A stretch of DNA of 58,218 nt from a virus. Made by a program: the position numbers and the translations under genes. Of this stretch, positions 13,394 through 37,500 are shown in pieces (the first letter of the stretch is position 1; the number at the start of each line of letters is the position of its first letter). The DNA is taken from positions 1 through 58,218 of the IMG/VR virus record IMGVR_UViG_3300025138_000046; one strand, written 5' to 3'. Under the pieces are notes generated by a model, which saw only the letters and a program-made list of their open reading frames with translations, searched no databases and was not told the DNA's origin.

Positions 13394-14155
13394 TTACTTT
13401 TCCTGCTTAACAAGTTTTTTTATTGCTTGTACGTAATTAGGCATTCCGTGATCTACAACTCCATCAAAGAATTTAAATCTTTTCCACGAGTTCCATATAC
13501 CATAAAAAGTATCTGCCCAAGTTGGTCCAACAGCTTTATTACCAAATCTATCAAAATAAATCATTTCGCCATGATGTCTAAATCCTAGCCATGCTGGAGG
13601 AATTCTACATACGATATCGTTATTATTCATAAATCTATAATGATCTGCGGATATATTCTTAATAAAAAGTTTACCGCCAACTCTTGGTGATCCAAATGTA
13701 AATAACTCTTCAGGTTGATATCTTGTAGTAGCAATTGTTGCCATTGCAGCACCTAAACTATGGCCTGTAAAATATACATCTTTTCTTACTTTTAGTTGAT
13801 CATTATGTTCAAGCTCTTTGACTATATCCATCCATACATCGTCTACTTCTTCTTGAAATCCACCGTGAACTTTACCACCAGCCTTTGCGGTGTTTTTAAT
13901 TATTTTTAGGTCAGCCATAACATCGTTTAGTTTGGAAGGTTCGGTTCCTCTAAAAGCAAACCATAGATCATTTCTATCTTTTGCAATGAGCACTTCGGCT
14001 CCATCCCTACTAATAATTTTGCCTGATGCAAAACCTAATTTTTTACAAGCTGTTTCAGCTGGTTTAGGATTCATGTAAGCAATTGCAGATAGTTTTGCTC
14101 CAACTTGCGCCCTCTCCCACACTGTCATTTGTTCTTTCATTCTAGTTGTCGCCAT
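13394..14155 (-). CDS. Class 3 lipase (alpha/beta hydrolase)
   Basis: A 253-residue class 3 lipase. The nucleophile elbow is GHSLGAA (Ser133), the oxyanion AFRGTEP is at ~67-73, and the other triad members are probably Asp180 (NNNDIVCRIP) and His236 (VDHGMPNY). No signal peptide is evident. The start at 14155 has a TGGAG site; the upstream ATG at 14200 would overlap the lipoprotein more. Being coupled to the spanin-like pair, it may help disrupt host membranes at lysis, or be a virion enzyme. The substrate is unknown. Confidence 0.82.
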   Translation of the reverse strand: MATTRMKEQMTVWERAQVGAKLSAIAYMNPKPAETACKKLGFASGKIISRDGAEVLIAKDRNDLWFAFRGTEPSKLNDVMADLKIIKNTAKAGGKVHGGFQEEVDDVWMDIVKELEHNDQLKVRKDVYFTGHSLGAAMATIATTRYQPEELFTFGSPRVGGKLFIKNISADHYRFMNNNDIVCRIPPAWLGFRHHGEMIYFDRFGNKAVGPTWADTFYGIWNSWKRFKFFDGVVDHGMPNYVQAIKKLVKQEK

Positions 14156-14642
14156 TTTTTTTCTCCAATTTAATTTCAACTGCTCCAGCATCTTCATCAT
14201 TTATTGTCACATTCCTATAGTAAACTATCACCTCACCGAGTTGATTAATATATCTTTTAATTTCTTGCGTATTATAAGACATTAGCTCATAATCAGCAAC
14301 ACTCATGGCAACAAAAACAATATCACCTCCGTGTTTCTTTTTAATATCATCGATAAACCTATCGAGATATGTATACCCTTCAGGGTACAAATCTTCTCTA
14401 CCTAATTTACAGTTTGATTTTTTAGTTTCAGGATCCTTAAGACAATTCTCAATTATTTTTGTATCTGAAACTACATACCATTTAGGTTCTTTTAAATCTA
14501 TTGCTCTTGGCATCACTGGCTGAACAATATCGATTTTAATTGGTTTTGTTATTATTTCAACTTCTCTAGGAGCCTGTTGAAGTAGTGAACAACCACTAAT
14601 CGTTAAGAGAGCTAATACGCTTGCTATCTGCTTCAATCGCAT
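14142..14642 (-). CDS. Lipoprotein, candidate outer-membrane spanin (o-spanin)
   Basis: A 166-residue protein with a lipoprotein signal peptide: MRLKQIASVLALLTISGC, lipobox TISGC with Cys18. The mature N-terminus is Pro-containing and would be anchored in the outer membrane. The start at 14642 has a perfect GGAGG site and lies inside the end of the i-spanin-like gene (47-nt overlap in another frame), a hallmark of Rz/Rz1 pairs. At 148 mature residues it is longer than typical Rz1, and the C-terminal domain (GYTYLDRFIDDIKKKHGG...) is not recognised, so the spanin call is moderate. Confidence 0.6.
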   Translation of the reverse strand: MRLKQIASVLALLTISGCSLLQQAPREVEIITKPIKIDIVQPVMPRAIDLKEPKWYVVSDTKIIENCLKDPETKKSNCKLGREDLYPEGYTYLDRFIDDIKKKHGGDIVFVAMSVADYELMSYNTQEIKRYINQLGEVIVYYRNVTINDEDAGAVEIKLEKKNGDN

Positions 14643-14988
14643 CAAAGACCTCCTTCGTTTGAGCGTTTGCTCGTGTTTCTATCATACCAGGTTTTGCACT
14701 AGCAAGTTTGGCAATATTATGTCTTCTAAATATATCTAGATAATCTGACATTTGTGTTTCGTATTGTTGATTTTGAACTTGAAGGCCTCTAAGAGAATTA
14801 GAAGTCTTTTCTAAATTGTTTTGAATTGATTCAATTGCCGCTTTTTGTTCTTGATCTCTTAAGTCTTGTGCTGCTATAACTTTGATTTGTTCTTCTAGTT
14901 TATTTTTCATGGGTACTACCGAGAACTGATAATACATAGATCCTGATATACCCATAGCAACAATAATCCCAATCAATATTTTTGACAT
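14596..14988 (-). CDS. Candidate inner-membrane spanin (Rz-like)
   Basis: A 130-residue protein with one N-terminal transmembrane helix (residues ~3-22) and a long periplasmic coiled coil (~30-95, rich in Gln, Glu and Lys), then NIAKLASAKPGMIETRANAQTKE. This layout and the overlapping downstream lipoprotein gene match the i-spanin/o-spanin arrangement that fuses inner and outer membranes at lysis. The C-terminal portion resembles Rz-like proteins of marine T4-like phages. Next to the lipase, it supports a lysis module here. Confidence 0.65.
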   Translation of the reverse strand: MSKILIGIIVAMGISGSMYYQFSVVPMKNKLEEQIKVIAAQDLRDQEQKAAIESIQNNLEKTSNSLRGLQVQNQQYETQMSDYLDIFRRHNIAKLASAKPGMIETRANAQTKEVFDAIEADSKRISSLND

Positions 14989-14989
14989 A

Positions 14990-15259
14990 TTATAACCTAT
15001 CGACGTCGATTCCTAGTACTTTTTTAATAGCAGCTTTAAGTTTCTTCTCGTCTGTTCCCCAATGCTTGCTCATATTATTAAACTTTACTGTGGTTCCTGA
15101 CACATTAACATCACGGCCTGATACATCGTATCCAGCTTTTTTAAATGCAGCTTCTACGTCACGGCCGTATGCTCGGTTTTTAAGCTCGAGTTCAGTTCCT
15201 CTCCAGTATCTAAAATCATATTTAGACAGTTCTTCTTTTAATTGTTTAAAAGTTTTCAT
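14990..15259 (-). CDS. Small basic protein with capsid-targeting-like N-terminus
   Basis: An 89-residue basic protein starting MKTFKQLKEELSKYD, similar to the T4 internal-protein targeting sequence MKTYQEFIAEA, with a possible LKE cleavage site at residues 7-9. The remainder (a possible YDVSGRDVNVSGTTVKF strand pair and a KKLKAAIKKVLGIDVD helix) is unlike any family I know. It is the last of the capsid-targeted block. Packaging and injection are inferred from the N-terminus only. Confidence 0.6.
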   Translation of the reverse strand: MKTFKQLKEELSKYDFRYWRGTELELKNRAYGRDVEAAFKKAGYDVSGRDVNVSGTTVKFNNMSKHWGTDEKKLKAAIKKVLGIDVDRL

Positions 15260-15274
15260 ATTTAATCCTTTATC

Positions 15275-15484
15275 TTAATTTTCTTTAACTTCTTTTTTAG
15301 ACTCAGCTGCTTTTCTTCTAGCAAGAATTCTTTCGACAAATCTACGGCCGGCTTTTGTTCTGCCATCGTAAATATCTTTCTTTTTCTTTTTCTTGTCGTG
15401 AACTGCGTCTGATGGCATGTTTACACCACCGCCCCCAACAGAGTTGGCTGCTGCGTCTTCCCATACGTCTCTAAATGTTTTCAT
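15275..15484 (-). CDS. Small basic structural/internal protein with CTS-like N-terminus
   Basis: A 69-residue protein, MKTFRDVWEDAAANSVGGGG then a strongly basic stretch (KKKKKKDIYDGRTKAGRRFVERILARRK). The combination of an MKTFxxxxxE(D/E) start and an ANSVGGG segment is one I recognise from several small virion-associated proteins of marine T4-like phages. It lacks an obvious LxE but has VWED at residues 7-10. It probably binds DNA in the head. Starts overlapping the stop of the next gene upstream. Confidence 0.6.
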   Translation of the reverse strand: MKTFRDVWEDAAANSVGGGGVNMPSDAVHDKKKKKKDIYDGRTKAGRRFVERILARRKAAESKKEVKEN

Positions 15485-16029
15485 TTTAGTGTTACCTTTC
15501 CTAATTTTTTACCCGCGGCTTTATTAACTTTTATTTTCTTTAATTTTTTACCTTGCGTTTTTACTTTTTGTACTATAGTTAAAAACTTTTTCCATATATT
15601 TTTTATTTTTTTACCATATTTTATATATAGTAGTACAAACATTAAAGTTCCTAATTTTAATTGCCCTGCGAGTGTTAATTTAGATAATATAGTTTTGGCA
15701 ATACCTATAGTAATTGGTATTGCGTGTTCAACACTAAATTCTATTACAAACGCAACCATAGATTCTGTAGTTGCCATTACGGCATCCATATCATAATAAG
15801 CAGCAGTACCATATATGCCAGCGGTGCTTACTACCGGTTTTGTTGCAATTATTTTTGCTGTACCCACGCCGGCCGTACCTACTGCCGTACCTACTGTACC
15901 TACTGCAGCACCTGGAGAGTTTATCGCTTTGACACCCCAGTTACCAACCGATCTTATAACTCCCCACACAACCGGAGCAAAAGCGACCTCATCCAACTGA
16001 GAATGTTCCTTGAATGTCATTACTGTCAT
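15481..16029 (-). CDS. Membrane-active protein with CTS-like N-terminus and basic tail
   Basis: A 182-residue protein. From the second Met it reads MTFKEHSQLDEVAF, a CTS-like segment with an LDE site. It then has a Gly/Ala/Val-rich repeat-like region (GAAVGTVGTAVGTAGVGTAK), hydrophobic helices (residues ~85-145) and a Lys-rich tail (QGKKLKKIKVNKAAGKKLGK). Such a protein could insert into host membrane after injection, which is inference. The first ATG at 16029 overlaps the previous stop (ATGA); the ATG at 16020 fits the targeting consensus better. Confidence 0.6.
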   Translation of the reverse strand: MTVMTFKEHSQLDEVAFAPVVWGVIRSVGNWGVKAINSPGAAVGTVGTAVGTAGVGTAKIIATKPVVSTAGIYGTAAYYDMDAVMATTESMVAFVIEFSVEHAIPITIGIAKTILSKLTLAGQLKLGTLMFVLLYIKYGKKIKNIWKKFLTIVQKVKTQGKKLKKIKVNKAAGKKLGKVTLK

Positions 16030-16622
16030 CTTTTTATATCCGCACTCGTAATGAGTATTTGTTGCTTAGTTAAAACGTGTTCAACTTGATAGACGTTTAA
16101 GCCAAATATAGAACCAGTAGGTTCTGTAAATTCTGAAACGTTTACCTTTGTATTTATATTTGCTATTATTTCAGCAGTATTTGGTGAGGCAATTTCTTGT
16201 ACTAATATATATTCACCAGGAGCAAGTTGGTTATTTTTATCAAACCAAGATGCACTTTCTGATATATCAATGGATCCATTAAAGTCTCCAAATATATCGT
16301 TTAAAACTTTTTGTAACTGATCATCATCTAAACCAGTTTCTTCTTTTACTAGGAACAACGCAGAAGCATATGTTGCTAACTTAGTACCTAATGAACCAGG
16401 AACTTTATTTAATAATCTTTTAATATTAAATACTAACCTATGAAAAATAGTAAACGCGGACTTTTCTTGAGGCGTTTTTCTGTCAGCCTTTTTCTTAAGT
16501 ATTTTACCGTTATTATCGATAATACCTAATCTATAAGCGTCCATACTTTCCCAAGGTGTTACTAATAGCTTTAGAAACCTAAAGGCATAAAATAGATCAC
16601 CAGTTCTTGAGATTATCCCCAT
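16026..16622 (-). CDS. Conserved T4-like structural-type protein
   Basis: A 198-residue protein starting MGIISRTGDLFYAFRFLKLLVTPW, with FTIFHRLVFNIKRLLNKVPGSLGTKLATYASALFLVKEETG around residues 57-97. I recognise this family as conserved across marine and Vibrio T4-like phages, where it lies among virion genes; biochemical role unknown. It has no capsid-targeting N-terminus, unlike its neighbours. It is coupled to genes on both sides. Confidence 0.65.
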   Translation of the reverse strand: MGIISRTGDLFYAFRFLKLLVTPWESMDAYRLGIIDNNGKILKKKADRKTPQEKSAFTIFHRLVFNIKRLLNKVPGSLGTKLATYASALFLVKEETGLDDDQLQKVLNDIFGDFNGSIDISESASWFDKNNQLAPGEYILVQEIASPNTAEIIANINTKVNVSEFTEPTGSIFGLNVYQVEHVLTKQQILITSADIKR

Positions 16623-16990
16623 TAAAATTTCCTTAATCTTTCGATTACGTTTTTGTCTAAAGGTATTTCTACCTTATAGTCTTCTTCTATATAATTCAAG
16701 AATACTAAAAATGTTTTTAGTACTGAGTAATGTTCGGGTTCAACTTTAAACCACATCATTCTATCAGCAGCTTTAATACCAAACACATTATATAATACAA
16801 TAATATGATTTAGTATAAGCCTTTCTTGTAAGTCTCCAGATTGTTCATAACGTCTAAGCAGTCTTTTCAGATACTTAAACCTTGTTAAATCATCTTTGAA
16901 CTCTTCTACCTCAATGCATTCCGGATTATTGTAGTGCTGTGCGGCGAAGAGTTCAAAGTTTTTACCAGTCAGTTTGTCAAATATTTTCAT
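16622..16990 (-). CDS. Conserved T4-like protein (MKIFDKLTGKNFELFAA family)
   Basis: A 122-residue helical protein starting MKIFDKLTGKNFELFAAQHY, with a very typical FKYLKRLLRRYEQSGDLQERLILNHIIVLYNVFG core (residues ~36-70). This family is conserved in T4-like marine phages with no known activity. Its stop overlaps the start of the 198-aa gene. No CTS; maybe a virion or regulatory component. Confidence 0.7.
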   Translation of the reverse strand: MKIFDKLTGKNFELFAAQHYNNPECIEVEEFKDDLTRFKYLKRLLRRYEQSGDLQERLILNHIIVLYNVFGIKAADRMMWFKVEPEHYSVLKTFLVFLNYIEEDYKVEIPLDKNVIERLRKF

Positions 16991-17015
16991 CATATATTAT
17001 CTATACTAGATAATT

Positions 17016-18263
17016 TTAACTGTATTCTTTTTGCAACTCTTTAAAGGTTTTACCTTCAAATCCCATAAAGTCTTGGAAATACTTAACTAGTTTTTTTTCA
17101 TCACCAGTAAATATACCAGCATCTGAACCCATCATTCCGTCACCTTTACCTTTTTTAAATGAGATTTTAATACCCATTTTCTTAGCTGCTTTGTCACCAC
17201 CAACATTTTTCATTTCATCTGATTCAAAAGATGTTTTGATTTGAGCTTCAGCAATAGTTTCTTCTTTAACTTCTTTCTCGTCATCATCAGTCTTTTTGCC
17301 ATTCTTTTTATCGATTGCTTTCTGAAGAGCAGGAGGTAAAGTTCCTTCATCTTTATCAGTTTCGTTATCAGCTTCATAGTTCTTATCAACGTAGTTAAAG
17401 AATTCTTTCTTCTTCTCGCCTTCTAATTCACCGGGTGAAGTAACACCAAACTTCTTAAGAGCGGACTTAAAGAATTTCTGATATCTTTCTTTATCTTCTT
17501 GCATCTTAGTCTTAACTTTGTTCATAGCATGAGCTTCATCAAGAACTTCTTCAGTAACAGATTCGTTTGCTAGTTGCAAAGCAGCAGCTACTTCGGTATC
17601 CTTAGATAAACCTTTAGCCATTTGCTCAATCTTTTTAATAGCACCAGTCATATTACCACCCATTTTTAAAGCAAGCGCAACAGCTTTTTTAACTTGTGGC
17701 TTTTGAAATTTAGACTTAGCTTCTAAAAGCTCTGGAAATAACTCTTCAATATCATCAGTATCCATAGAGTACAAATTAGATTGTAAAAATGCTAAGATGT
17801 TCTTTTTCTCTCCAGATACATCATAACCATCTCTTGAGTGCTTCTTAAACTTAAGCTTAAATTTCTTTTCAGCGGCAGGAATACCTTCACCAGTATGATC
17901 AATATCAACTTTTACTTTGCCCTTACCAGCTTTTAGTTTAGCTTCGTCAATAGTAATAGTTACTTCTTCTTTAACAACTGTACCGTCTTCTTTTTCACCA
18001 GATTTTTTAACTTTGTGAGCACCTTTAAAGTCTTTTTCGCCTTTAGCTTTTGGCTCACCAGCTTCATCAACTTCTGGTTTGTCATGGGTATAACCCTTAT
18101 CAGCAAGAGCTTTATGCTCTGCTTCGTCTTTGGCTACTTTCTTTTCGCCAGTTTCCGGATGAAACATATCATGTGGATATTTTCCTTCCTCTTTTACTTT
18201 ACCTTCAAGTACATCGCTAACAGCAGCAGCAATGCTCAAAGTAATATCATCTTTAAGTTTCAT
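17016..18263 (-). CDS. Highly charged scaffold/internal protein with multiple prohead-protease-like sites
   Basis: A 415-residue, extremely Lys/Glu/Asp-rich protein. Several possible prohead-protease sites ((L/I)xE) are scattered along it, for example LEG near residue 19, LLEA near 180, VLDEA near 244 and TIAEA near 336, which suggests processing into fragments. The KKFGVTSPGELEGEKKKEFFNYVDKNY segment (~267-293) resembles a small helical module found in T4-like head-associated proteins. The C-terminus has KMGIKISFKKGKGDG...DEKKLVKYFQDFMG. Probably a prohead core or packaged polyprotein. The SD TAGGAGAAT fixes the start. Confidence 0.6.
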   Translation of the reverse strand: MKLKDDITLSIAAAVSDVLEGKVKEEGKYPHDMFHPETGEKKVAKDEAEHKALADKGYTHDKPEVDEAGEPKAKGEKDFKGAHKVKKSGEKEDGTVVKEEVTITIDEAKLKAGKGKVKVDIDHTGEGIPAAEKKFKLKFKKHSRDGYDVSGEKKNILAFLQSNLYSMDTDDIEELFPELLEAKSKFQKPQVKKAVALALKMGGNMTGAIKKIEQMAKGLSKDTEVAAALQLANESVTEEVLDEAHAMNKVKTKMQEDKERYQKFFKSALKKFGVTSPGELEGEKKKEFFNYVDKNYEADNETDKDEGTLPPALQKAIDKKNGKKTDDDEKEVKEETIAEAQIKTSFESDEMKNVGGDKAAKKMGIKISFKKGKGDGMMGSDAGIFTGDEKKLVKYFQDFMGFEGKTFKELQKEYS

Positions 18264-18273
18264 ATTAATTCTC

Positions 18274-18573
18274 CTATTTTATGAAAAGCATTCCTGTAAT
18301 AGTCGTGGCCGCAGCTACTAATACTATCCAGAAGATTTTATTTATTACATTGACAGTAGTAGCATTATCGCGTACTGCCATTTCCAACCTATCAACTCTA
18401 TTTATAAGGGCTAATATTTGTTCTCCTTGTTGTTTGCCAAACTCTGCCATCGTGGCGATTTTTTCTTCAGCACGCGCCAAAGAAATGATCGCGTCTGACA
18501 TACGATCAATTTTTTCTTCAATTCTATCCAACCTGGCCGATTGCGCAGCTCTTTGCTCATTAGCTGTTGTCAT
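18274..18573 (-). CDS. Coiled-coil protein with C-terminal membrane anchor
   Basis: A 99-residue protein composed of amphipathic helices (DRIEEKIDRMSDAIISLAR, then EQILALINRVDRLEMAV) and a single C-terminal transmembrane helix (residues ~79-98, IFWIVLVAAATTITGMLF). The design resembles XhlA-like phage proteins of lysis or membrane-attachment systems. A TTTAAATATG start region and overlap with the next upstream gene suggest coupling. Role not established. Confidence 0.6.
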   Translation of the reverse strand: MTTANEQRAAQSARLDRIEEKIDRMSDAIISLARAEEKIATMAEFGKQQGEQILALINRVDRLEMAVRDNATTVNVINKIFWIVLVAAATTITGMLFIK

Positions 18574-18838
18574 GTTTAAATATCCTAATCTTTAAAGGCG
18601 TTACGCCTTTTATTATTCTATGGTATTCTTCTTTCTTAACGTCAAATACCATACCTTTCTTTAAAAGCCATGGCAAACATTTTTGTAACTGAAATTGCCA
18701 TCCTTCACCATCAAGGATTTCTATTTCCCTATCCTGAATATCACGATGCCATACAAATTCTGCATCATCGCGAGAAGGGTCAAATTCCCTTATATCCGCA
18801 TCTTCCCAATACGGTTTACCAAAAGTAAGATCCACCAC
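18560..18838 (-). CDS. Conserved small protein (FVWHRDxxDR family)
   Basis: A ~92-residue protein containing AEFVWHRDIQDREIEILDGEGWQFQ and LPWLLKKGMVFDVKKEEYHRIIKG. I recognise this as a conserved cupin-like small protein of marine T4-like phages (WHRD and YHRLIKG are the recurrent motifs); function unknown. No ATG is well placed: the frame extends upstream to 18961 but this would overlap the neighbouring coding region by 146 nt. I infer a GTG start at 18838 or 18835 near AAAGGTGGTG, coupled to the upstream stop at 18816. Confidence 0.55.
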   Translation of the reverse strand: MVDLTFGKPYWEDADIREFDPSRDDAEFVWHRDIQDREIEILDGEGWQFQLQKCLPWLLKKGMVFDVKKEEYHRIIKGVTPLKIRIFKHDNS

Positions 18839-19187
18839 CTTTAAGCCCCAAGTCTTTGGCGTATTTAGGCAATCTACATGCCCAATAGCCTGGTTTTGTT
18901 TTATCAGTCTTAGTATCACAGTTATGACGAGCTGCAAAGTTTCTTGCTGCATCTCTATCATTTATCTTAGATGTTAGACCACCTTTTTCGTCACCAAACT
19001 CAATCTTTTTTACATTTCCCGTCTTAGGGTTTTTTACGTAAACCACATACTTCTTTTTACCACTAGATCTTTTTGGTTTATTGAGTTCTTGCTCTTCACC
19101 AATTTCGATCATAGGTTGTTCTAAAGGTACGTGTTGACCTTCATACAATCCAAATCTTTCGTCAATATGTTCTAGAAAACTATGCAT
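18816..19187 (-). CDS. Capsid-targeted basic protein (VYVKNPKTGNVKKIxFGD family)
   Basis: A 123-residue protein. The N-terminus MHSFLEHIDERFGLYEGQH has a CTS-like form with an LYE cleavage site (LYE|G). The body has KKYVVYVKNPKTGNVKKIEFGD, DPDA-like NDRDAARNFAARHNCDTKTDK and GYWACRLPKYAKDLGL motifs, matching a family I remember as DUF5872, widespread in T4-like phages. Cys and His spacing could form a small zinc site. Start at 19187 because the upstream in-frame codon is TTG with its SD too close. Confidence 0.7.
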   Translation of the reverse strand: MHSFLEHIDERFGLYEGQHVPLEQPMIEIGEEQELNKPKRSSGKKKYVVYVKNPKTGNVKKIEFGDEKGGLTSKINDRDAARNFAARHNCDTKTDKTKPGYWACRLPKYAKDLGLKGGGSYFW

Positions 19188-19191
19188 AGTT

Positions 19192-19647
19192 TTATACAAA
19201 CTCCTTCCAAGTTCTTACTATTTTACTCATAACCATTTTAATAGCAGTAAAGTATGCCCATCCAAATCCATAAAATATATGGAATGTATGGTTCTTTTCA
19301 ATTTCAGACTTAGGTCCAAACTTTCTAGTCCAATTGTCAACATACTCACCTTTATATCTTAATACTGCATGAGTTACTTTCCACTTACTTGAACCAACAC
19401 AACAAATGCCAGCCTGGTGAGTTAATAACATCCACCACATTTTAAGATGGCTCTCTCCGCACAATCTGTAAAGTATTGATAAAGAATAATCTTCGCAATC
19501 ACCTACAAACTTACCTTCGGCATCCGGTGAATAAATAATTTTCCAAGAATCGGCGGAGCCGTATTGTGTTTTATCTTTGGCATACTTCCACTTACTAGTG
19601 AATGACCTAACTATTTTATCCCTTGCTTTTAATTCTTCTCTATTCAT
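19192..19647 (-). CDS. Transglutaminase-like cysteine peptidase
   Basis: A 151-residue protein of the bacterial transglutaminase-like cysteine peptidase type. Catalytic residues are visible in order: Cys51 in GDCEDYSLSI, His93 in VTHAVLRYKGEYVDNW and Asp104. It could cleave peptides or isopeptide bonds; the target is unknown. It has no CTS-like N-terminus even though it lies within the capsid-targeted block, so it may act in the host cell or be assembled in another way. Coupled to both neighbours. Confidence 0.72.
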   Translation of the reverse strand: MNREELKARDKIVRSFTSKWKYAKDKTQYGSADSWKIIYSPDAEGKFVGDCEDYSLSILYRLCGESHLKMWWMLLTHQAGICCVGSSKWKVTHAVLRYKGEYVDNWTRKFGPKSEIEKNHTFHIFYGFGWAYFTAIKMVMSKIVRTWKEFV

Positions 19648-20138
19648 AATTTTACTCCTTTTAATTTTTTCAAGCCCTTTAAAACTTCTGTATAAGCTTT
19701 ATCTAATTCCTTTTTAGCTTTTGCTATTTGAGCTTTTTTCATTGCTTTTTCATCTGCAGCTATGTTTGATAAACGATCCTTTTCGAATTCTATCGTTTCT
19801 TTTGCTGCGTATAAATCTTCTTTGGCTCGTCTAAGATCAGTCAATTTATCAGCTTTACTTTGAGCTTTATCTCGTTTTCTATTTGCAACGTTCTGCTTAG
19901 AATATCGGCTCTTAAGTTTTTTAGCTGCTTTTGCACCTTGCTTTCCACCAAACTTTGCGGCCATTGTACCGTATTTAAGTAAACCCGAAACAGCTTTTAC
20001 GCCTTGGTCAATTACTACAATCAAAGCAGCTTCAGCAGCTCCTTCATTCATATCTAATTGCATAGTAGCTTCATGTAAAGGCATATCTAGAATTTCATCT
20101 AAAGTTTTTGGTTCTATGTGTTCAGCAAATGTTCTCAT
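19644..20138 (-). CDS. Lys-rich coiled-coil protein with CTS-like N-terminus
   Basis: A 164-residue protein from ATG 20138 (SD AAAGGGA): MRTFAEHIEPKTLDEILDMP, then LHEATMQLDMNEGAAEAAL. There are at least two candidate cleavage sites, LDE and LHE|A. The remainder is a Lys/Ala-rich long helix with repeated KAKKELDKAYTEVLKGLKKLK-type segments. This composition matches DNA-binding internal head proteins. Coupled to the kinase gene upstream. Packaging is inferred. Confidence 0.62.
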   Translation of the reverse strand: MRTFAEHIEPKTLDEILDMPLHEATMQLDMNEGAAEAALIVVIDQGVKAVSGLLKYGTMAAKFGGKQGAKAAKKLKSRYSKQNVANRKRDKAQSKADKLTDLRRAKEDLYAAKETIEFEKDRLSNIAADEKAMKKAQIAKAKKELDKAYTEVLKGLKKLKGVKL

Positions 20139-20809
20139 CTTTGTCCCTTTATCCATTTTATTGCAATGGCGTTTTCTGGAGCTTTAGCAGCCCAGGTTTT
20201 TATTTTCTTAAAAGCGTTTAGTGCAGCACTATCAATATCAGATCCTTTCGAATTATCCACAACAATCATTCTTTGTCTAAATAAACCTTGAAACTTACCA
20301 ATATTCTTCTGTACATCTTTCCACATTTTACTTACCATATCATCTGGTAACGAGCGTGGTCGCATTTTATTTCTTTCTAATGCTGTATCTAAATCTGTAT
20401 TAACAAAAATCATATGTACAGAATATCCAATAGTTCTTAACATATCAACTTGCTTTTTAATTTTAGAATAGTCTTTACCAGTACCGTCAATAACAATACC
20501 CATTCTACCTTCTAAAGCTCTCATCATAATTCTACCAGTGATAGCTTTAGCTTTTGCTCTTACAGATTGGCCTTGAGCTGAGGCTATATCTTCTGGATCA
20601 GTAGTTAATTTAGCATTTTTTAATCCTTTTTCAAAAGCATCATCTGAATTTATCAATCTAAATCCAAGAGCTTTCAGTGCAGTCTTACCTACAACAAATG
20701 ATTTACCAGAACCTGGTCCACCTGCTAGGAATACTGCTTTAAAAATAGAAGGATCATTCACACCTTCCATTAAATCAAAGTGTTGTTTAAAGTTATCCAC
20801 CGAATTCAT
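20135..20809 (-). CDS. P-loop kinase (zeta-toxin/AAA_33-like) with CTS-like N-terminus
   Basis: A 224-residue P-loop kinase. Walker A is GGPGSGKS (residues 30-37), then LINSDDAFEKGLK, IVIDGTGKDYSKI (Walker B-like) and an ERNKMRPRSLPDDMV arginine-containing lid. It resembles zeta-toxin or AAA_33 phage kinases that phosphorylate small molecules or nucleic-acid ends. The first 16 residues (MNSVDNFKQHFDLMEG) are CTS-like with an LME|G cleavage site just before the catalytic domain, so it may be packaged and injected. It overlaps the 79-aa gene by 17 nt. Confidence 0.78.
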   Translation of the reverse strand: MNSVDNFKQHFDLMEGVNDPSIFKAVFLAGGPGSGKSFVVGKTALKALGFRLINSDDAFEKGLKNAKLTTDPEDIASAQGQSVRAKAKAITGRIMMRALEGRMGIVIDGTGKDYSKIKKQVDMLRTIGYSVHMIFVNTDLDTALERNKMRPRSLPDDMVSKMWKDVQKNIGKFQGLFRQRMIVVDNSKGSDIDSAALNAFKKIKTWAAKAPENAIAIKWIKGQR

Positions 20810-21032
20810 GTCCTGCGACTCTTTTCATTTGCTTTTTAAATTCAGCAAAATCTGGTTTACTTTTGTAAAGCTTAATAGAGATCTCATTTCTATCTTTACC
20901 CTTAATTCTCCACTTATAACCTTTATCTAAATGTTCTGGCTTTGTAGTCTTTACTACTCTACGTTTAAATCCATCTTCCCAAGGTTCACTCTTACCTGTA
21001 CCTTCAGTATAATATTCCGCAAAGGTTTTCAT
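20793..21032 (-). CDS. Small basic protein with CTS-like N-terminus (79 aa)
   Basis: A 79-residue basic protein starting MKTFAEYYTEGTGKSEPWED. The YTEG segment may be the processing site. The remainder (KGYKWRIKGKDRNEISIKLYKSKPDFAEFKKQMKRVAGHEFGG) looks like a compact alpha/beta domain of unknown family, with FKKQMKRVAGHEFGG at the end. Coupled to its neighbours; function unknown. Confidence 0.6.
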   Translation of the reverse strand: MKTFAEYYTEGTGKSEPWEDGFKRRVVKTTKPEHLDKGYKWRIKGKDRNEISIKLYKSKPDFAEFKKQMKRVAGHEFGG

Positions 21033-21316
21033 TTCTTTAAGTCGTACCTGTATGTTTTACCTTTTGCTTGGCCGTCCTTTGTAATTTTAAACTTAGCAAT
21101 ACGAGCTAGGTTGTTAACTACTTCTAATTTACCTTTAGACATATCCTTTTGTAACTCTGGTTTTACTTTCTTCCAGATAGTATCTAATATATCTGAATCA
21201 GACATTACTAATGGACCTTCGCTCATAGCAGATTCTGAAAGCTTTTTATCCTTGGCATTCTGAAGAGACTCGGTAGCAGCCTTTTGTCTTCTTAAAATTT
21301 CATGGAAAGTATTCAT
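21029..21316 (-). CDS. Small protein with CTS-like N-terminus (95 aa)
   Basis: A 95-residue protein starting MNTFHEILRRQKAATESLQNA. The beginning fits the MxTFxEx pattern, though a clean (L/I)xE is less certain (LSES near 26-29). The C-terminus (MSKGKLEVVNNLARIAKFKITKDG...YRYDLKK) is basic. No family recognised. It is coupled to the 79-aa gene (ATGA-like overlap). Confidence 0.58.
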   Translation of the reverse strand: MNTFHEILRRQKAATESLQNAKDKKLSESAMSEGPLVMSDSDILDTIWKKVKPELQKDMSKGKLEVVNNLARIAKFKITKDGQAKGKTYRYDLKK

Positions 21317-21317
21317 C

Positions 21318-21776
21318 TTACTTTTTTTCCTTGGCCATCATAGCAGCAATTTTCATTAACGTCTTTTTGTCTTTATCAGATATTTTATCTAATTGCTTTT
21401 TCTTAGCAATATCTTCTAGTGACTTTGCCCATGAAGCTGAGGATTCTTCAACGTTTTCAAATTTAAGCCTTAATGCTTTTAATAACTCTTTCTTGTATCG
21501 TGCAAATAAATCACTACCGGAATCTTTAAAGAAATCTGTCTTTACGCCTTTATGAAAAGGGCCTGGTTTGTGATATTTTTTAATAATAGTATATCCAGTA
21601 TCTGACATCCAATCATTAAAATCATCTTCCGTTTTAAGTTTACTTACAGATTTTTTTGCAGTTCTGATTAAATCAGATGCAGCCTTTTTACTATAAGGCT
21701 CGTCATCCATCCAATTTTCGTTAACCGATTCAGAATGAGTGTTATAGTTAGTTCTCAATTCTTTAAAATTTTTCAT
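21318..21776 (-). CDS. Hypothetical protein with CTS-like N-terminus (152 aa)
   Basis: A 152-residue, Lys- and Ser-rich protein starting MKNFKELRTNYNTHSESVNEN. The N-terminus matches the block's pattern; a cleavage site is not obvious in the first 20 residues. The body contains DDFNDWMSDTGYTIIKKYHKPG and ends with a basic helix (KISDKDKKTLMKIAAMMAKEKK). No family recognised. Single-gene spacing of 1 nt to the next gene. Confidence 0.58.
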   Translation of the reverse strand: MKNFKELRTNYNTHSESVNENWMDDEPYSKKAASDLIRTAKKSVSKLKTEDDFNDWMSDTGYTIIKKYHKPGPFHKGVKTDFFKDSGSDLFARYKKELLKALRLKFENVEESSASWAKSLEDIAKKKQLDKISDKDKKTLMKIAAMMAKEKK

Positions 21777-22024
21777 TTTACCATTCCTCTTACTTCTTTT
21801 TTAGATAACCCATATACGTCAACCAACCATTTTTCTAAACCTCTTTTATCTCTACTCATGACAACAAGTTCGTTTTCTCTCTTGTCCCAAGTATCGATAT
21901 AAACTCCATCAGATTCCCAATCATCAGCGTATTCTCTTGGATCACCCATGTCAAAATCCAACGCAACTTTAAAATTTCTTTCTAAAATTGTTTGGCTTTC
22001 TCTTATTTCTTTAAACGTTTTCAT
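21773..22024 (-). CDS. Hypothetical protein with CTS-like N-terminus (83 aa)
   Basis: An 83-residue protein starting MKTFKEIRESQTILERNFKV; ILE at residues 13-15 is a good prohead-protease site. The acidic middle (DFDMGDPREYADDWESDGVYIDTW) and RGLEKWLVDVYGLSKKEVRG end resemble a small alpha/beta fold. No family recognised. Overlaps its neighbour upstream by 1 nt (TAATG style). Confidence 0.6.
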   Translation of the reverse strand: MKTFKEIRESQTILERNFKVALDFDMGDPREYADDWESDGVYIDTWDKRENELVVMSRDKRGLEKWLVDVYGLSKKEVRGMVK

Positions 22025-23211
22025 TAACTTCCCCTTACTTTAGCGGCTAGGTCTTTATCAGCCCCGCCCCATGTTCCTTTTGATTTTGTCGCGAACGAAT
22101 TAACTCTTGCTAATCCCCACTGTGTTGGATTTGTTCCAGGTCTATGACTTGAACTCCAAGCTGCATATCCTCTATCGAATACTTTCTTCAATATACCATA
22201 TGGCATACCTGTTTTATCAGCTTTATTTTGAAGTGCTTTCTTTGCATCAGCTTCTTCTAAAGACTGAGAGAAGCTTTTCATTTCTCCAAACTTCTTTTTA
22301 AAATCTTTTGTGTGATCGCTTTCAGGAGCATTTGGTCTTGGCTTATCGTGTTTAGCCTTTTGTTTAGCATCCATATCAGAATACTTCTTTTCTCCTAAAT
22401 GCTCTACATCATCTAACCAAACTCGTTTCTTCCATTCACCGAATTCAACTACTAAAAAGTTAGTACCGCACCTTTGAATAACACCAACCTGATTTGTTTC
22501 TTTTAAAACGACTTCGTCACCTTCCTTAAACAGATTACCTTTTACAAACTTTTCTCTTTTCTCTGATACAGGTTCTAGTTGTGTATGCTTTCTAGCAGAT
22601 TCTTTTTTAAGGCCCATGCCTTTTCTTATAGCATAGTATAGAGTTTGTATTCCGTCACCTGGAATTTCTAACGATGCATCTGCAAAGCCTTGAAGATCAC
22701 CTGCAGCAACTAAAGCTCTAAGTTTAGAAGCAGACATTCCTTTAACACCTTCAGCTTCTGGATCTCTTTCTCCTGCAGAAACTACTTTTATTTCATTTTC
22801 AAAATTATAAAAGCCGTGTCTTGAATCTACACCATTATACTTATTTAAAAGCACTTCAAATTCTTTTAGTCTGTCTGAACCAGCAACCATTGTAACCGAT
22901 GTAAAACCTTGCTTATATAACTTAACACAAATGTCTAATGCTGTTCTTACATCGCTATCCGCCATAATGCTTCTTGCGTGTTTTGGAAACATTTTGCGCA
23001 AAAATTTAATTTTATCTTTAAATGTTAACGGATTCTTTTTAGCGTCTTGTGATTTTGAAGCATATACTCTATACGGATTACTTCCTGCGGTTTTCTTTAA
23101 TTTGTCAAATAACTTTGCATGACCTGGTGTTGGCGGATTAAACCTACCAAAGACGAAATAGACTTCGCCCTTTGCCTCGCTTAAATATTGACTAAAACTC
23201 TTAAATTCCAT
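22024..23211 (-). CDS. Nucleotidylyltransferase fused to a C-terminal phage domain; two CTS-like segments
   Basis: A 395-residue multi-domain protein. Residues 1-13 (MEFKSFSQYLSEA) are CTS-like with LSE|A. Residues ~15-200 are a nucleotidylyltransferase fold: FGRFNPPTPGHAKL (HxGH-like motif ending Gly30-His31) and GMSASKLR (ISSTxxR-like, ~158-165), as in NMN/NaMN adenylyl- or cytidylyltransferases. Residues ~225-272 look like a KOW/SH3 module (KEGDEVVLK...VIQRCGTNFLVVEF). Residues 311-321 (MKSFSQSLEEA) repeat the CTS with LEE|A, followed by a conserved C-terminal domain (TGMPYGILKKVFDRG...HRPGT, remembered as DUF5824). Looks like a fusion of two packaged proteins. Confidence 0.8.
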   Translation of the reverse strand: MEFKSFSQYLSEAKGEVYFVFGRFNPPTPGHAKLFDKLKKTAGSNPYRVYASKSQDAKKNPLTFKDKIKFLRKMFPKHARSIMADSDVRTALDICVKLYKQGFTSVTMVAGSDRLKEFEVLLNKYNGVDSRHGFYNFENEIKVVSAGERDPEAEGVKGMSASKLRALVAAGDLQGFADASLEIPGDGIQTLYYAIRKGMGLKKESARKHTQLEPVSEKREKFVKGNLFKEGDEVVLKETNQVGVIQRCGTNFLVVEFGEWKKRVWLDDVEHLGEKKYSDMDAKQKAKHDKPRPNAPESDHTKDFKKKFGEMKSFSQSLEEADAKKALQNKADKTGMPYGILKKVFDRGYAAWSSSHRPGTNPTQWGLARVNSFATKSKGTWGGADKDLAAKVRGS

Positions 23212-23595
23212 TTACTTCTCACCTTTATCTTTTAATTTTGCTCTGTCTTTTTTCTTAATTCCTGGTAACATTTTCTTAGCGATTTTAGAAATCATTCCTT
23301 TCTTATTGGCTAACTTTTTTTCGATACCAGCACGTGCTGCAAAAGAAAGATCAGCTTTACTTTTGCCTTTTAACATTTTTTTGATTAGGAATTCCCTGGC
23401 TGCCTTATTGGCACGGGATTTAAGTTTTTCTGGGGAGGCAAGTTTTTTCGCAGCTTTCTTTTTACCAAGTGCGATCTTTGCTTTGTTCTTGCGAAATGAA
23501 GCTTTCATTTTCATTCTGTGTGCTAATGACATAGCCTCCGAAAAGTCTACGGTTTCATTAGTTAGATCTGCGTCGTGTTCTTTAAACGATTTCAT
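23212..23595 (-). CDS. Very basic conserved protein with CTS-like N-terminus
   Basis: A 127-residue protein from ATG 23595 (SD CGAGGATAA): MKSFKEHDADLTNETVDFSE, with the possible cleavage FSE|A. The body is extremely Lys/Ala-rich with RMKMKASFRKNKAKIALGKK, LIKKMLKGKSKADLSFAAR and IAKKMLPGIKKKDR motifs; I recognise this as a conserved family of T4-like marine phages. A DNA-binding, histone-like internal protein is the natural guess. An upstream ATG at 23616 lacks a good SD. Confidence 0.68.
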   Translation of the reverse strand: MKSFKEHDADLTNETVDFSEAMSLAHRMKMKASFRKNKAKIALGKKKAAKKLASPEKLKSRANKAAREFLIKKMLKGKSKADLSFAARAGIEKKLANKKGMISKIAKKMLPGIKKKDRAKLKDKGEK

Positions 23596-23617
23596 TGTTA
23601 TCCTCGGTATCCCCATA

Positions 23618-24883
23618 TCAGTTAGGATTATCCCAACCTTTTATAATATCTTTGCTGAAGTTATTAGTAGAAAATTCTAATCTATCAACAAGCTTTACTG
23701 CTCCACCTTCCATACGATCTATAGCAACAAAACCCTCAGGGTTGGTCACTTTAAATCCGGACTTAGTCTTCACAAACGTACCAATTTTACTTAGTCTGTT
23801 TAGTTTATTTATAATAATTAATTTGCTATCCACAACTAAATTTTGTAAATCGAACACATTTTGTAAACTTTTTATGTTAGATTTGCTAAAAAATTGTAAT
23901 AATTGATCACGTTTTACTATTTGAATATCTTTACCTTTTTGACTGCTTCTCTTATCAATTTCTTTTTGGTATCTAGTATTTACCCACATTACTAATCCTG
24001 TTGCATGCTTCTTAGTATCGGTAATTCTCTGCCCTGATCTCACTTTAGTGTTATTATAAACGTTAATAAGTAAGTTTAATTCCCTGTTAGATTCTAATTC
24101 TTTCAGCGTAGAACCTGATATCTTTTTAAACATTTTACCAGCATCAGACAACTTTTTATTAAGCTCATCTGTTTCTTGTTTTGTTAATGTTGCTGTTCCG
24201 GAAAGATCATCTAGTGTTGCATCCTGCATCCAAACATCTTTCGACGGTTTAAGTTTAGTGACTATTGATCTGCCAAACTCAGCTCTCATTGTTTCAAATG
24301 TACCACCGTTATAAACCGTGTGCCATACGATACCGATCTTAGCTCTTGAAATTTCTTTTGCTAATGCAGTTGATGTTGGAACTGCATAAGCGATTGTATT
24401 AGGATGAAATACTATGTGCTTTACTCCACCAATATTTTCAGTTTTGAGGTCAGACTTATCAAACATGAAGTCACCTTGTATAACGCCTTTAATTCCTAAA
24501 GGCTGTAAATAATCAAAGGCCATTTTTAATTTTTTAGAAAGATCTCCAGAAGTATCAGCATCAATATCTGCATGAGATTTATATACCTTAGGATTAGAAT
24601 TAAAGATTCCTTTTTTAGCAACAAAGAATTGTCCATCTCTTGGATCTTCTCCAGCAAATACGGCGGGGGCACCGTCCCATTTTACGGTAACGTCTACTGC
24701 AGATTTTGCATTACCCGATAACATATCTCGCAACGACCTAAGCGCGAGGATAGCTTGGCGCGCCCCCTTAACTCCACCGTCAAGAATAAGATCCTCAATA
24801 TGAATCATATGAGTGTTCTTACCTGCGGCCTCCGATAATTGATTTTTAAATGATTTTATAACTTTCGTCAAATTTGATTTCAT
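23618..24883 (-). CDS. Ligase-like nucleotidyltransferase of marine T4-like phages, with CTS-like N-terminus
   Basis: A 421-residue protein belonging to a family I remember as DUF6267. After a CTS-like IKSFKNQLSEA (residues 9-19, LSE|A) it has AGKNTHMIHIEDLILDGGVKG and a motif I of covalent nucleotidyltransferases, KWDGAPAVF (Lys68-x-Asp-Gly), then VAKKGIF and a VIQGDFMF motif (Gln136-Gly-Asp) resembling the ligase motif IIIa/IV region. RNA ligases, capping enzymes and DNA ligases share this core. The substrate (RNA, DNA or protein) is unknown. Its neighbour on the upstream side is coupled by a 1-nt overlap. Confidence 0.72.
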   Translation of the reverse strand: MKSNLTKVIKSFKNQLSEAAGKNTHMIHIEDLILDGGVKGARQAILALRSLRDMLSGNAKSAVDVTVKWDGAPAVFAGEDPRDGQFFVAKKGIFNSNPKVYKSHADIDADTSGDLSKKLKMAFDYLQPLGIKGVIQGDFMFDKSDLKTENIGGVKHIVFHPNTIAYAVPTSTALAKEISRAKIGIVWHTVYNGGTFETMRAEFGRSIVTKLKPSKDVWMQDATLDDLSGTATLTKQETDELNKKLSDAGKMFKKISGSTLKELESNRELNLLINVYNNTKVRSGQRITDTKKHATGLVMWVNTRYQKEIDKRSSQKGKDIQIVKRDQLLQFFSKSNIKSLQNVFDLQNLVVDSKLIIINKLNRLSKIGTFVKTKSGFKVTNPEGFVAIDRMEGGAVKLVDRLEFSTNNFSKDIIKGWDNPN

Positions 24884-26256
24884 TATTGATATACCTTCAC
24901 GTACGCGCTAGAATCTTCTGATTTAGATCCCGCATAGTTTATAATTTTAGTTATCCAACGATTTGCTTTAGTGCCGCTGTTTTTATCAACGTAATATAAG
25001 ACATATAAACACGCTAGCTTTGAACCTATCCAATAAACGTCTTTTAATAACAATTCTTTTTCAAAGTTTTCATATGAATCATTTTTATAAAAATTGTTAT
25101 ACATTTCATAAAATATTTTAATAGATCTTTTATCTTTTTTAAGAATACTCTTAGCTATTTTATTAATGACTTTATTGTCGGGTATTTTCTTTCCAAAAAC
25201 CGACTTTATACCTTCTGCCATAATTCCGTATCCGGCACCGCCGCCTCTCGATGTTTTCATTCTGATTTCTGCTTTAATAGCTCCTCCAGCAGATCCAGCC
25301 CTTAGGTCAAGCTTACCAGCGTCAAATATAACAGTAGCACCTTTATTAGACCAAAAGGTTCCTCTAAGTTCTCCTTGGAACATTATAGTTTTTATCTTAT
25401 GGTCGTCAGTATCAGGCGGTAATTTAATATTGTACTCTTTAGCTTTAGCAGTTTTCTTAACAAGCTTTAATGATATTCCGACCAAGTCTCTATCAACAAA
25501 TGCTTGTAACAATGCTTTATTATAAGCTGCTATACTTTCGGTGCTAAGAGTTGACAATTTATAACTTTTATTAACGGCCCAGATATCTCCAGGGTTCCAC
25601 TTATCATCTTTAACAGGTTTTTGATCAGAATTTTTATATGCGACATTCTTCATTGCATATACTGTATTCATTAATTTACTTGCTCTATGAAATGTCTGCG
25701 ACTTATTTATGTAACCGTTTTTAATAAGAATTACTGCGGATTCATATGATGAATGGAACCATCCATCTTCGACTGATAATACTTCATCTAAAGTAGCATC
25801 GACATAAACTCTATTATATGCAGCTTTAAGAATATTGTGATTCATAAAGAATTCTTCGTCTTGCATTCCGTTGTCTAACATAGCTTGACACATAACACAT
25901 TGATGAGATTCTGTGATTTTAGTATTGAGAGTTCCGCCGCCAGCTCCACCTCCACCTCCAAATACTTTACTCTTTCCTAGATCGGAAGAGCTTATCATTT
26001 TATCGCCACCTATGAGAGTAAAGGGTTTTTTTAGTTTTTTGAATATTTCAATTGAAGTTATAGCATTTTCTATATCAGTTACTTTAAATACTCCGCCTTT
26101 AGCCAATTCAAGGGGCTTTCCGTCTTTTATAAGACGTGCTAAAATATCTATTCTGTCTATACCAGTATTAGCATTTGGTTTTAACAATTCGGATGGAGTT
26201 AGCTTTACGGCTTCTTGAAGTTCTTCGATTTGTTCGAAATATCTTAAGCTTTTCAT
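24883..26256 (-). CDS. Large conserved protein of unknown function with Gly-rich motif and CTS-like N-terminus
   Basis: A 457-residue protein, first gene after promoters at 26293-26333. It starts MKSLRYFEQIEELQEAVKL, a CTS-like segment with LQE|A. A signature KSKVFGGGGGAGGG lies at 95-108, then a CVMC pair (Cys120, Cys123), DDKWNPGDIWAV (~219-230), GISLKLVKK (~259-267) and FQGELRGTFWSNKG. I recognise the family from cyanophages and other marine T4-like phages; no activity is established to my knowledge. The conserved polar motifs suggest an enzyme. Conserved pairing with the ligase-like protein downstream suggests joint function. Confidence 0.7.
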   Translation of the reverse strand: MKSLRYFEQIEELQEAVKLTPSELLKPNANTGIDRIDILARLIKDGKPLELAKGGVFKVTDIENAITSIEIFKKLKKPFTLIGGDKMISSSDLGKSKVFGGGGGAGGGTLNTKITESHQCVMCQAMLDNGMQDEEFFMNHNILKAAYNRVYVDATLDEVLSVEDGWFHSSYESAVILIKNGYINKSQTFHRASKLMNTVYAMKNVAYKNSDQKPVKDDKWNPGDIWAVNKSYKLSTLSTESIAAYNKALLQAFVDRDLVGISLKLVKKTAKAKEYNIKLPPDTDDHKIKTIMFQGELRGTFWSNKGATVIFDAGKLDLRAGSAGGAIKAEIRMKTSRGGGAGYGIMAEGIKSVFGKKIPDNKVINKIAKSILKKDKRSIKIFYEMYNNFYKNDSYENFEKELLLKDVYWIGSKLACLYVLYYVDKNSGTKANRWITKIINYAGSKSEDSSAYVKVYQ

Positions 26257-26325: not shown

Positions 26326-26333
26326 TATTTATA
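26326..26333 (-). promoter_or_regulatory. Late promoter (TATAAATA) in tandem with P5
   Basis: Minus strand TATAAATA in non-coding DNA, 4 bp upstream of the TGTACA of P5. It would drive the capsid-targeted block late, consistent with head assembly. Confidence 0.65.
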
Positions 26334-28002: not shown

Positions 28003-28662
28003 TTATATAACGTCGTCAAGCGGGAATATTTGGTATATTGCCTCAGCACATGCCTTAGCTATCTCTTGATGTTCTTTCTGAGTACCATTAGCAGATCGTA
28101 ATTGTATATAATGAATCCAAGATCTTAGTGTTCCATTCACGTACATACGAGACATTGTCAAACCTTCAGGTAAAATTGCTCGTGCCTGTTCCTTTGCAAT
28201 ACCTGCGTTTATTGCCCAATCATATGCGTGTTTACAACGCTCAATAATGACTTCTTGATATGATTCCCATATATGATGTATAGAATCTTCCATAGGAATA
28301 TCAACGGAGTTTTGTCGATTTTTGTTATCTTGCATCCGAGCATCTCTCGTCACAAAGGTTAAATCTTTAGTAGGATCAGCATACCGCTGACTAAATTCCT
28401 GAAAAGAAAAAGATCGATGTCTAAGAATTTGTCTTGCGATATCCCGGGTTGTATCAATTTCCATACAGACACTGGCCATCTCAAGAGGTGACCAGTGCTG
28501 ATGTTTAATCAAATATTTAACTAATTTCTCTGCGGTTTCTTCATTATTTTGGTTACTAGGATTCGACACCCTAGCGCAATATGCTACCATTTGTAACAAA
28601 TCATCTTTCAAATCAACGCCAATTGCTGGCTTACTATACGAAACTACACGAACCTTAAACAT
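28003..28662 (-). CDS. thyX: Flavin-dependent thymidylate synthase
   Basis: A 219-residue ThyX that makes dTMP from dUMP with FAD and methylene-THF. The ThyX motif RHRSFSFQEFS (RHRx7S, residues 81-91) is intact, and the C-terminal NGTLRSWIHYIQLRSANGTQKEHQEIAK contains the substrate-binding Arg. A HWSPLEMASVCMEI helix also matches. It is the last gene in the UvsX-gp41 unit. The phage also has a ThyA-family enzyme (36844-37500), so ThyX is likely the true dTMP producer. Confidence 0.92.
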   Translation of the reverse strand: MFKVRVVSYSKPAIGVDLKDDLLQMVAYCARVSNPSNQNNEETAEKLVKYLIKHQHWSPLEMASVCMEIDTTRDIARQILRHRSFSFQEFSQRYADPTKDLTFVTRDARMQDNKNRQNSVDIPMEDSIHHIWESYQEVIIERCKHAYDWAINAGIAKEQARAILPEGLTMSRMYVNGTLRSWIHYIQLRSANGTQKEHQEIAKACAEAIYQIFPLDDVI

Positions 28663-36843: not shown

Positions 36844-37500
36844 TTATACTACTAAATCAAAATGACGTTCGTAAACGTGTAGGTTTTGTACTTGCCAATG
36901 GATTTGACCAACGTCAACTCCGAGCTCATCGGCTAATTCCCCAAGAACATATTCTTGCCAAGCATAATCATTGCGGTAACCAAATATTACATCATTAGAT
37001 CTCATTTGAACTACACATTCTAATACATCGTCTCGTATATAATACGTAACTGCATTAGTGCATATAAAATCGTTCTTTTCATTTTCATACCACTCGTGCC
37101 AAATAGAAGGTCTTTGATATACCATACTAGCTCTACGCGAATCTCTATTTCTAGTAAGTTCTAGTACAACTTGTTCAAATTGATTATGATACTTTTCACT
37201 GAAAATTAAGTGTCCGTAATTTGAATTAATTTCGCCATGATCATTAGCAGTCATTTTCCATGCTTCCGGTGGTTCACGCTCACCACGATAAATATCGTTA
37301 ATATTTGTAGATTGATGTATATACCAATCTATTTCAGCGTCGATGTAATGTTTGTTGGGTTTGCCAAAAATAGCAGGTTCGTCAGCAACAAAGGATGCAC
37401 CGATTAACTCAATAGTTTTACCGCCATTTCTGTCTTCGGTAAACATTTTGTTTAAAAGTCTGGCTTTAAATAAACCTCGAATTTCGCTTATACTATTCAT
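36844..37500 (-). CDS. ThyA-family enzyme, probable dCMP (or dUMP) hydroxymethylase
   Basis: A 218-residue ThyA-family protein. Conserved positions include Glu56 (AEIDWYI), the Arg pair 122-123 (SRRAS), Tyr95 (NSNYGH), Cys147 (DFICTNAVTYYI, nucleophile), and QMRSNDVIFGYRND (165-178). Position 178 aligns with the Asn of thymidylate synthase (Asn177 in E. coli) but is Asp here. In T4 gene 42 and related enzymes this Asn-to-Asp change switches pyrimidine preference to dCMP and accompanies hydroxymethylation. Since ThyX also exists, this is likely not a dTMP synthase. It is shorter than E. coli ThyA (264). Coupled to the dNTP hydrolase gene. Confidence 0.78.
   Translation of the reverse strand: MNSISEIRGLFKARLLNKMFTEDRNGGKTIELIGASFVADEPAIFGKPNKHYIDAEIDWYIHQSTNINDIYRGEREPPEAWKMTANDHGEINSNYGHLIFSEKYHNQFEQVVLELTRNRDSRRASMVYQRPSIWHEWYENEKNDFICTNAVTYYIRDDVLECVVQMRSNDVIFGYRNDYAWQEYVLGELADELGVDVGQIHWQVQNLHVYERHFDLVV

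Follow-up and report, generated by a model that had tools for sequence, protein, structure and literature searches.

Why should some fourteen neighbouring genes of a marine phage, for enzymes and small basic proteins of different kinds, begin with variants of one short sequence? The question is raised by positions 14,990 to 26,256 (the block) of IMG/VR virus record IMGVR_UViG_3300025138_000046, whose whole 58,218 nt (the window) form a 58-kb fragment of a T4-like marine myovirus. The window includes genes for DNA polymerase, clamp, clamp loader, RegA, UvsX, UvsY, a UvsW-type helicase, the late sigma factor gp55 and ribonucleotide reductase (RNR); no head or tail genes were found in it. A search for near-identical DNA in phage records gave no matches. 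Among annotated records, Phage C48C1, the Methylophilales phages (Melnitz) and Pelagibacter phage HTVC008M come closest, and cyanophages are more distant. As in C48C1, Melnitz, HTVC008M and the cyanophage relatives, the block is situated between the genes for the replicative helicase and RNR. Our answer, to which we assign a probability of about 0.87, is that the block is a T4-type operon of cargo that would be targeted to the capsid and trimmed by the prohead protease gp21, and that is larger and richer in enzymes than the cargo of T4. As the late enzymes and the other products share a T4-type head-loading tag, the phage probably ships them in its particle and delivers them with its DNA.

In the capsid targeting sequence (CTS) of T4, residues 4 and 7 target the protein and residues 8 and 10 govern processing (PMC9026906). 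The tag in the block, of which MEFKSFSQYLSEAK, with its Phe and Glu, is one example, is short and N-terminal, with an aromatic residue at position 4 and an aromatic residue, His or Leu at position 7, as in the T4 CTS; the exact DNA pattern of the T4 tag gave no matches in the window. The preliminary description had listed 14 open reading frames (ORFs) with such N-termini, and all were found, all on the minus strand. Two of its starts, 23595 and 20138, correspond to ATGs within longer ORFs (opening at 23616 and 20156, respectively), and a third, 19187, lies inside the ORF that opens at 19199; relatives favour the starts it had chosen. It had also described an MK[TS]F-like start, a short acidic stretch and then (L/I)xE. 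In place of the acidic stretch, K-[ST]-F-x-[EQDNS]-[FYHLI] followed by (L/I/V)xE describes the tags better.

To score these N-termini, a position-specific model of 10 columns was trained on T4 and named marine phages only, without data from the window, and each gene's N-terminus was compared with 1031 interior stretches at a threshold of p≤0.01. The training sequences were chosen by eye from those phages, so that no window data entered the test but the analyst's view of the motif did. Of the block genes, 10/20 reached the threshold, against 0/76 of the remaining window genes (Fisher p=1.6e-8), so that the motif is not equally common outside the block. The two best interior matches in the whole window are likewise found in the block, one at residue 311 of the nucleotidylyltransferase and the other at the C-terminus of the 17016 protein (genes without a tag, and families, are named by their lower coordinate). 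Four ORFs, opening at 26256, 21316, 20809 and 20156, scored weakly within the window and were placed in the class via the sequences of their relatives (MKNFKDFKTITEA, MKSFKEQQGIEEAPLV, MKTFKEHFDLMEG and MKSFSEYTEPKTLDE, respectively). Hence, all fourteen named genes belong to the class, ten directly and four via relatives, but six further genes inside the block coordinates (19192, 18560, 18274, 17016, 16622 and 16026) lack the motif, and the block is mixed. The possibility that the whole block is cargo was rejected, as these six are untagged and a spanin pair follows.

Across 80 loci of metagenomic relatives in IMG/VR, 72/72 nucleotidylyltransferases, 64/79 DUF6267 proteins and 52/53, 44/46 and 26/29 members of the 23212 basic, 18816 and 15275 families retain the tag. 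It is absent from both spanins (0/27 and 0/24) and from relatives of 16026, 18274 and 18560, and is seen in 2/30 relatives of 19192 and 3/34 of 16622. That the motif merely reflects translation starts or the composition of AT-rich late genes is scarcely credible. ATG AAA ACN TTY is indeed AT-rich and start-proximal, but the 76 non-block genes and the untagged genes of the same operon together rule out a start-codon composition effect, and the motif recurs inside a fused protein.

In alignments of the relatives, a fixed Phe is followed by a variable linker and then by the site. The site reads LME↓G, LYE↓G, LSE↓G or IDE↓G in the kinase family (↓, predicted cut) and QLSE↓AA, YVPLQE↓AA or YVPLTE↓S in DUF6267, while in the 21029 family propeptides of different length all end in (L/I/M)xE↓(A/G)PLV. 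The only invariant propeptide columns of the 24883 family (18-sequence alignment) are F7 and E15. In three families anchored solely on the mature start, P1 is Glu in 14/14 (kinase family), 15/15 and 15/15 distinct sites. P3 is Leu, Ile or Val, P1' is mostly A/G/S and usually Ala or Gly, and entropy peaks at P2 in all but two families, one with a tie and one in which P1' is the most variable position. A fixed Glu and a hydrophobic P3 around a variable P2 is the pattern expected from selection by an (L/I)xE protease, and the signature, as read from these alignments, is that of the T4 gp21 prohead protease; predicted cleavage at the (L/I/V)xE site is strongly supported. The propeptides, of about 10-35 residues, are disordered in both models.

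The same tag stands on many different bodies. The window and 240 fetched loci contain 540 tagged ORFs (537 on the coding strand, 3 on the opposite strand), which fall by mature sequence into 43 families (22 have at least three members), and the upstream neighbour of DUF6267 varies among several unrelated tagged proteins. Descent of the shared N-terminus from one duplicated ancestor, with no present targeting role, would suit genes held in a single operon, given that duplication is common in phages, but is very unlikely in view of the 43 families of different mature bodies, the fixed Glu and flanking hydrophobic positions around a variable residue, and the retention of the site in fused copies. 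DUF5824, a separate tagged gene in C48C1 (MITFKKYLEE), is fused in the window, where the joint retains MKSFSQSLEEADA; more divergent fusions retain joints like LTFEDFxVDE, and in Melnitz the 18816 family is additionally fused to the nucleotidylyltransferase. Because the fusions keep the tag inside, we infer that they are gp21-cleaved polyproteins, and the nucleotidylyltransferase-DUF5824 protein is probably cut in two.

Three observations concern single genes in the relatives. In a 128-kb relative, G001, 10 of 162 genes are tagged, nine of them in the block between helicase and RNR; the tenth (71037-71642, MKKFNEFLAERAGKGLTIFDIDDTMF) has a DIDDT HAD-phosphatase-like start. The annotated start of the C48C1 cytidyltransferase (63448-64857) is probably 66 nt too late, a GTG start yielding the tag MIKNFSQYLLEE. 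A match at 139555 of Melnitz was discarded as a false positive, being, judged from its sequence, probably an internal start of the clamp loader.

The protease itself is encoded by clade members G001 and G002, two large contigs, and is 67-70% identical to that of C48C1. Their gp23 propeptides contain ISE↓A, those of Melnitz LSE↓A and those of cyanophages LAE↓A and LTE↓A, in each case at the equivalent position ahead of the mature capsid protein, where cleavage would be predicted. The proposal that the block proteins are targeted to the capsid and trimmed was thus supported by the aromatic residue at CTS position 4, the (L/I)xE↓(A/G) site with its invariant Glu, the recurrence of the tag on bodies that are otherwise unrelated, and the occurrence of gp21 among clade members. 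The use of a T4-type tag for packaging is well supported, and the predicted targeting and trimming strongly so. Ahead of the block, where a late promoter had been proposed, lies a late-promoter-like TATAAATA box. All 15 matches to TATAAATA in the window are on the coding strand and 7 are no more than 80 nt from a start, where about 2 would be expected. As several are 6-40 nt before starts (55790, 56229, 1949, 2804 and 44484), the replication region, too, may contain dispersed late promoters.

By published mass spectrometry, orthologues of the nucleotidylyltransferase have been detected in virions of four cyanophages (S-SM1, S-SCSM1, S-CREM2 and S-SZBM1), and several products of neighbouring genes are also reported from cyanophage virions. 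T4-GC190 (cytidylyltransferase) was found in S-SM1 (PMC3037559), and mass spectrometry detected the NMNAT gp91 in S-SCSM1 (PMC9602691), gp154-156 and 160 in S-CREM2 (PMC10665884) and 136, 139 and 140 in S-SZBM1 (PMC9146016). In the GenBank record of S-SCSM1, gp89-93, 95 and 97 are labelled virion proteins, and the syntenic block is thus largely labelled. The cyanophage orthologues begin with MKSFLQFLKEA, MKNFSSFLTEA, MRFRQFIIEA (these three virion-detected) or MKKFSAFLSEA, and GC190 of S-SM2 with MKSFFQFLSEA. DUF6267 of S-SZBM1 begins directly at the domain, without a tag, and was undetected in virions, a single agreeing negative; this copy rules out that DUF6267 is tagged everywhere. Abundant late proteins sticking to particles could account for such detections, as raised by the S-CREM2 and S-SCSM1 authors, and RegA is also listed for S-SCSM1. 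We consider this improbable, since the same family was detected in four phages by separate studies, the proteins are tagged where N-termini were read, and the abundant DNA polymerase, UvsX and RNR are unlabelled within the S-SCSM1 tables examined.

Several points nevertheless weigh against capsid-targeted cargo. The window is a fragment without head genes, so that its own gp21 is unseen and gp21 is known from clade members only, and the virion detections are of cyanophage orthologues, none from this phage. CsCl virion preparations can contain contaminants, as the S-CREM2 and S-SCSM1 authors note (PMC9602691 for S-SCSM1), and both left open whether the enzyme is carried or a contaminant; RegA, as said, bears the virion label. 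S-SCSM1 gp90 and gp92 carry that label too but show no clear tag, the small tagged S-SZBM1 proteins 191 and 192 and S-SCSM1 gp30 were undetected, and the untagged S-SZBM1 DUF6267 belongs here too. We found no paper linking the virion enzymes of cyanophages to a CTS; the one paper found that brings cyanophages and the CTS together is a T4 review, which proposes that the CTS may serve T4-like phages for the carriage of various proteins (PMC9026906).

As to what is carried, the preliminary description had named three enzymes. The product of 22024-23211 has a CTP_transf_like domain (PF01467, above cutoff) with the HxGH-type motif FNPPTPGH of the NMNAT/cytidylyltransferase superfamily, and the P-loop kinase belongs to the AAA_33/zeta/PNK group. 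For the ligase-like nucleotidyltransferase, DUF6267, the motifs (KWDG, EGxV and VKL) held, with K68, D70, G71, E383, G384, V386 and K397 invariant in 43 sequences. In ligase/capping-type nucleotidyltransferases, KxDG is the nucleophile motif, and EGxV and a K-containing motif follow later in the sequence. Among its fold-search matches, RNA/tRNA/NAD+ ligase domains were recurrent but weak (E about 0.5-3), and sequence searches of solved structures with DUF6267 and the nucleotidylyltransferase gave spurious matches or none; DUF6267 is, by motif, a candidate ligase-like enzyme. Very basic proteins were also claimed, and nine of the ten non-enzyme tagged products (excluding the 24883 protein) have an isoelectric point (pI) above 9, the other being acidic.

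A cargo much larger than T4's is supported by the number of tagged genes (about 14 here, 10 in the 128-kb relative), but a few of the small basic products may serve to fill the head and not as effectors. More broadly, the proteins could be packaged and cut, yet serve mainly as core or scaffold helpers and DNA-neutralising filler, not as injected effectors, with the enzymes along by chance. Many tagged proteins are small and very basic, the core proteins of T4 undergo cleavage and are for the most part expelled (PMC9026906), and the Lys/Glu-rich 17016 protein has six (L/I/V)xE(A/G/S) sites. This protein has a tag-like C-terminus (GKTFKELQKEYS) and similar proteins in relatives, S-SCSM1 gp89 and gp92 from the same region are virion-labelled, and it is possibly a core protein cut into pieces. 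We nonetheless regard filler as the less likely role for the block, though the most serious of the alternatives, because the enzyme motifs are strictly conserved (KWDG and EGxV in all 43 sequences), T4 internal proteins (IPs) and Alt, which use the same loading route, are ejected (PMC9026906), and rapid turnover of tagged bodies fits host-facing roles.

In our reading, the block would be expressed as a late operon of internal head proteins, and a CTS of 10-20 residues with Phe near position 4 would join each protein to the assembling prohead core. The phage's gp21 would cut the (L/I/V)xE↓(A/G) site after the tag, and the freed NMNAT-like enzyme, candidate ligase-type nucleotidyltransferase, P-loop kinase and small basic proteins would stay in the DNA-filled head. 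By analogy with T4, the mature cargo would most likely enter the host together with the DNA, and we infer that it would act at the start of infection. Our tentative suggestion, rather doubtful in its full extent, is that marine T4-like phages preload an enzyme kit (NAD synthesis plus nucleic-acid end repair by kinase and ligase-like enzymes) that counters NAD-depleting or RNA-cutting host defences before phage gene expression, and that under arms-race selection modules are exchanged or joined into polyproteins that gp21 cleaves.

Table 1. Features of the block and its flanks (↓, predicted cut)
Feature	Coordinates	Strand	Tag or remarks
TATAAATA late-promoter-like box	26326..26333	-	exact match; 70 nt before first block gene
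457 aa, phrog_1462 family	24883..26256	-	MKSLRYFEQIEELQE↓AVKL; F7, E15 invariant in 18 relatives
DUF6267, candidate ligase-type nucleotidyltransferase	23618..24883	-	...IKSFKNQLSE↓AAGKNTH; start codon uncertain
Very basic protein, pI 10.6	23212..23616	-	MKSFKEHDADLTNE; start probably 23595
Nucleotidylyltransferase (NMNAT/cytidylyltransferase-like) fused to DUF5824	22024..23211	-	MEFKSFSQYLSE↓AK
Internal second tag	22252..22281	-	MKSFSQSLEE↓A; fusion joint, aa 311-320; strongest interior match in window; kept in relatives
83 aa tagged protein	21773..22024	-	MKTFKEIRESQTILE↓R
152 aa tagged basic protein	21318..21776	-	MKNFKELR
95 aa protein	21029..21316	-	MNTFHEIL...MSE↓GPLV; propeptide of variable length before (L/I)xE↓(A/G)PLV
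79 aa protein	20793..21032	-	MKTFAEYYTE↓GTG
P-loop kinase (AAA_33/zeta-toxin/polynucleotide-kinase-like)	20135..20809	-	NFKQHFDLME↓GVNDP
170 aa basic protein	19644..20156	-	MRTFAEHIEPKTLDE; start probably 20138
127 aa protein	18816..19199	-	MHSFLEHIDE↓RFGLYE; start probably 19187
Lys/Glu-rich protein	17016..18263	-	no N-terminal tag; six (L/I/V)xE(A/G/S) sites, 1.5 expected
182 aa basic protein with hydrophobic stretches	15481..16029	-	MTFKEHSQLDE↓VA
69 aa basic protein	15275..15484	-	MKTFRDVWEDAA
89 aa basic protein	14990..15259	-	MKTFKQLKEELSK
Spanin pair (14596-14988 and 14142-14645)	14142..14988	-	next downstream of block; phrog_739 and phrog_812; no tag

A fold search with the 24883-26256 protein gave no match; its distant homologue S-SCSM1 gp90 is labelled a virion protein. 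The product of 19192-19647, between tagged genes and itself untagged in nearly all relatives, weakly matches bacterial transglutaminase-like cysteine peptidases (BTLCP, PF06035). A PADLOC scan returned marginal matches only. This one phage fragment also encodes two proteins matching different thymidylate synthase families (28003-28662 and 36844-37500; phrog_85 and phrog_160).

The tag offers a testable reason for the repeated finding of nucleotidylyltransferases in purified cyanophage particles, and with it dozens of small, anonymous genes in phages abundant in the ocean would become candidate injected effectors, recognisable by a 10-residue sequence. Foreign proteins have already been loaded into T4 with such a signal, of which the block tags are natural variants. 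Among known systems, the ejection proteins of phiKZ and SPN3US are likewise protease-trimmed head cargo delivered to the host (for the block, both cleavage and delivery are predicted), but their propeptides are often >100 residues with AxE-like cleavage (AQE), and the block proteins, with about 10-35 residues and (L/I/V)xE, do not show that combination. Closer is the cyanophage T4-GC190 cytidylyltransferase/NMNAT, a virion protein that is orthologous to the window enzyme, carries the same T4-like tag where read, and in S-SCSM1 and S-SZBM1 has the same helicase-to-RNR setting; unlike it, the window enzyme is fused to DUF5824 and has neighbours, such as DUF6267, that are also tagged. With T4 IPI-III and Alt (MKTYQEFIAE↓A, gp21-processed), the block shares a 10-20 residue N-terminal tag with an aromatic residue at position 4 and an (L/I)xE↓A site. 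Also common to both are mature proteins that are basic, their rapid turnover, a gp21 encoded within the clade and late expression signals (putative in the block). However, its mature bodies are not recognisable as T4 IPs, about fourteen tagged genes lie in one block where T4 has only a few, and these include NMNAT-like, ligase-like and kinase enzymes and a fused protein with a second, internal tag. The kind of system is thus already known from T4; what is new here is its size, its enzyme content and its internal tags.

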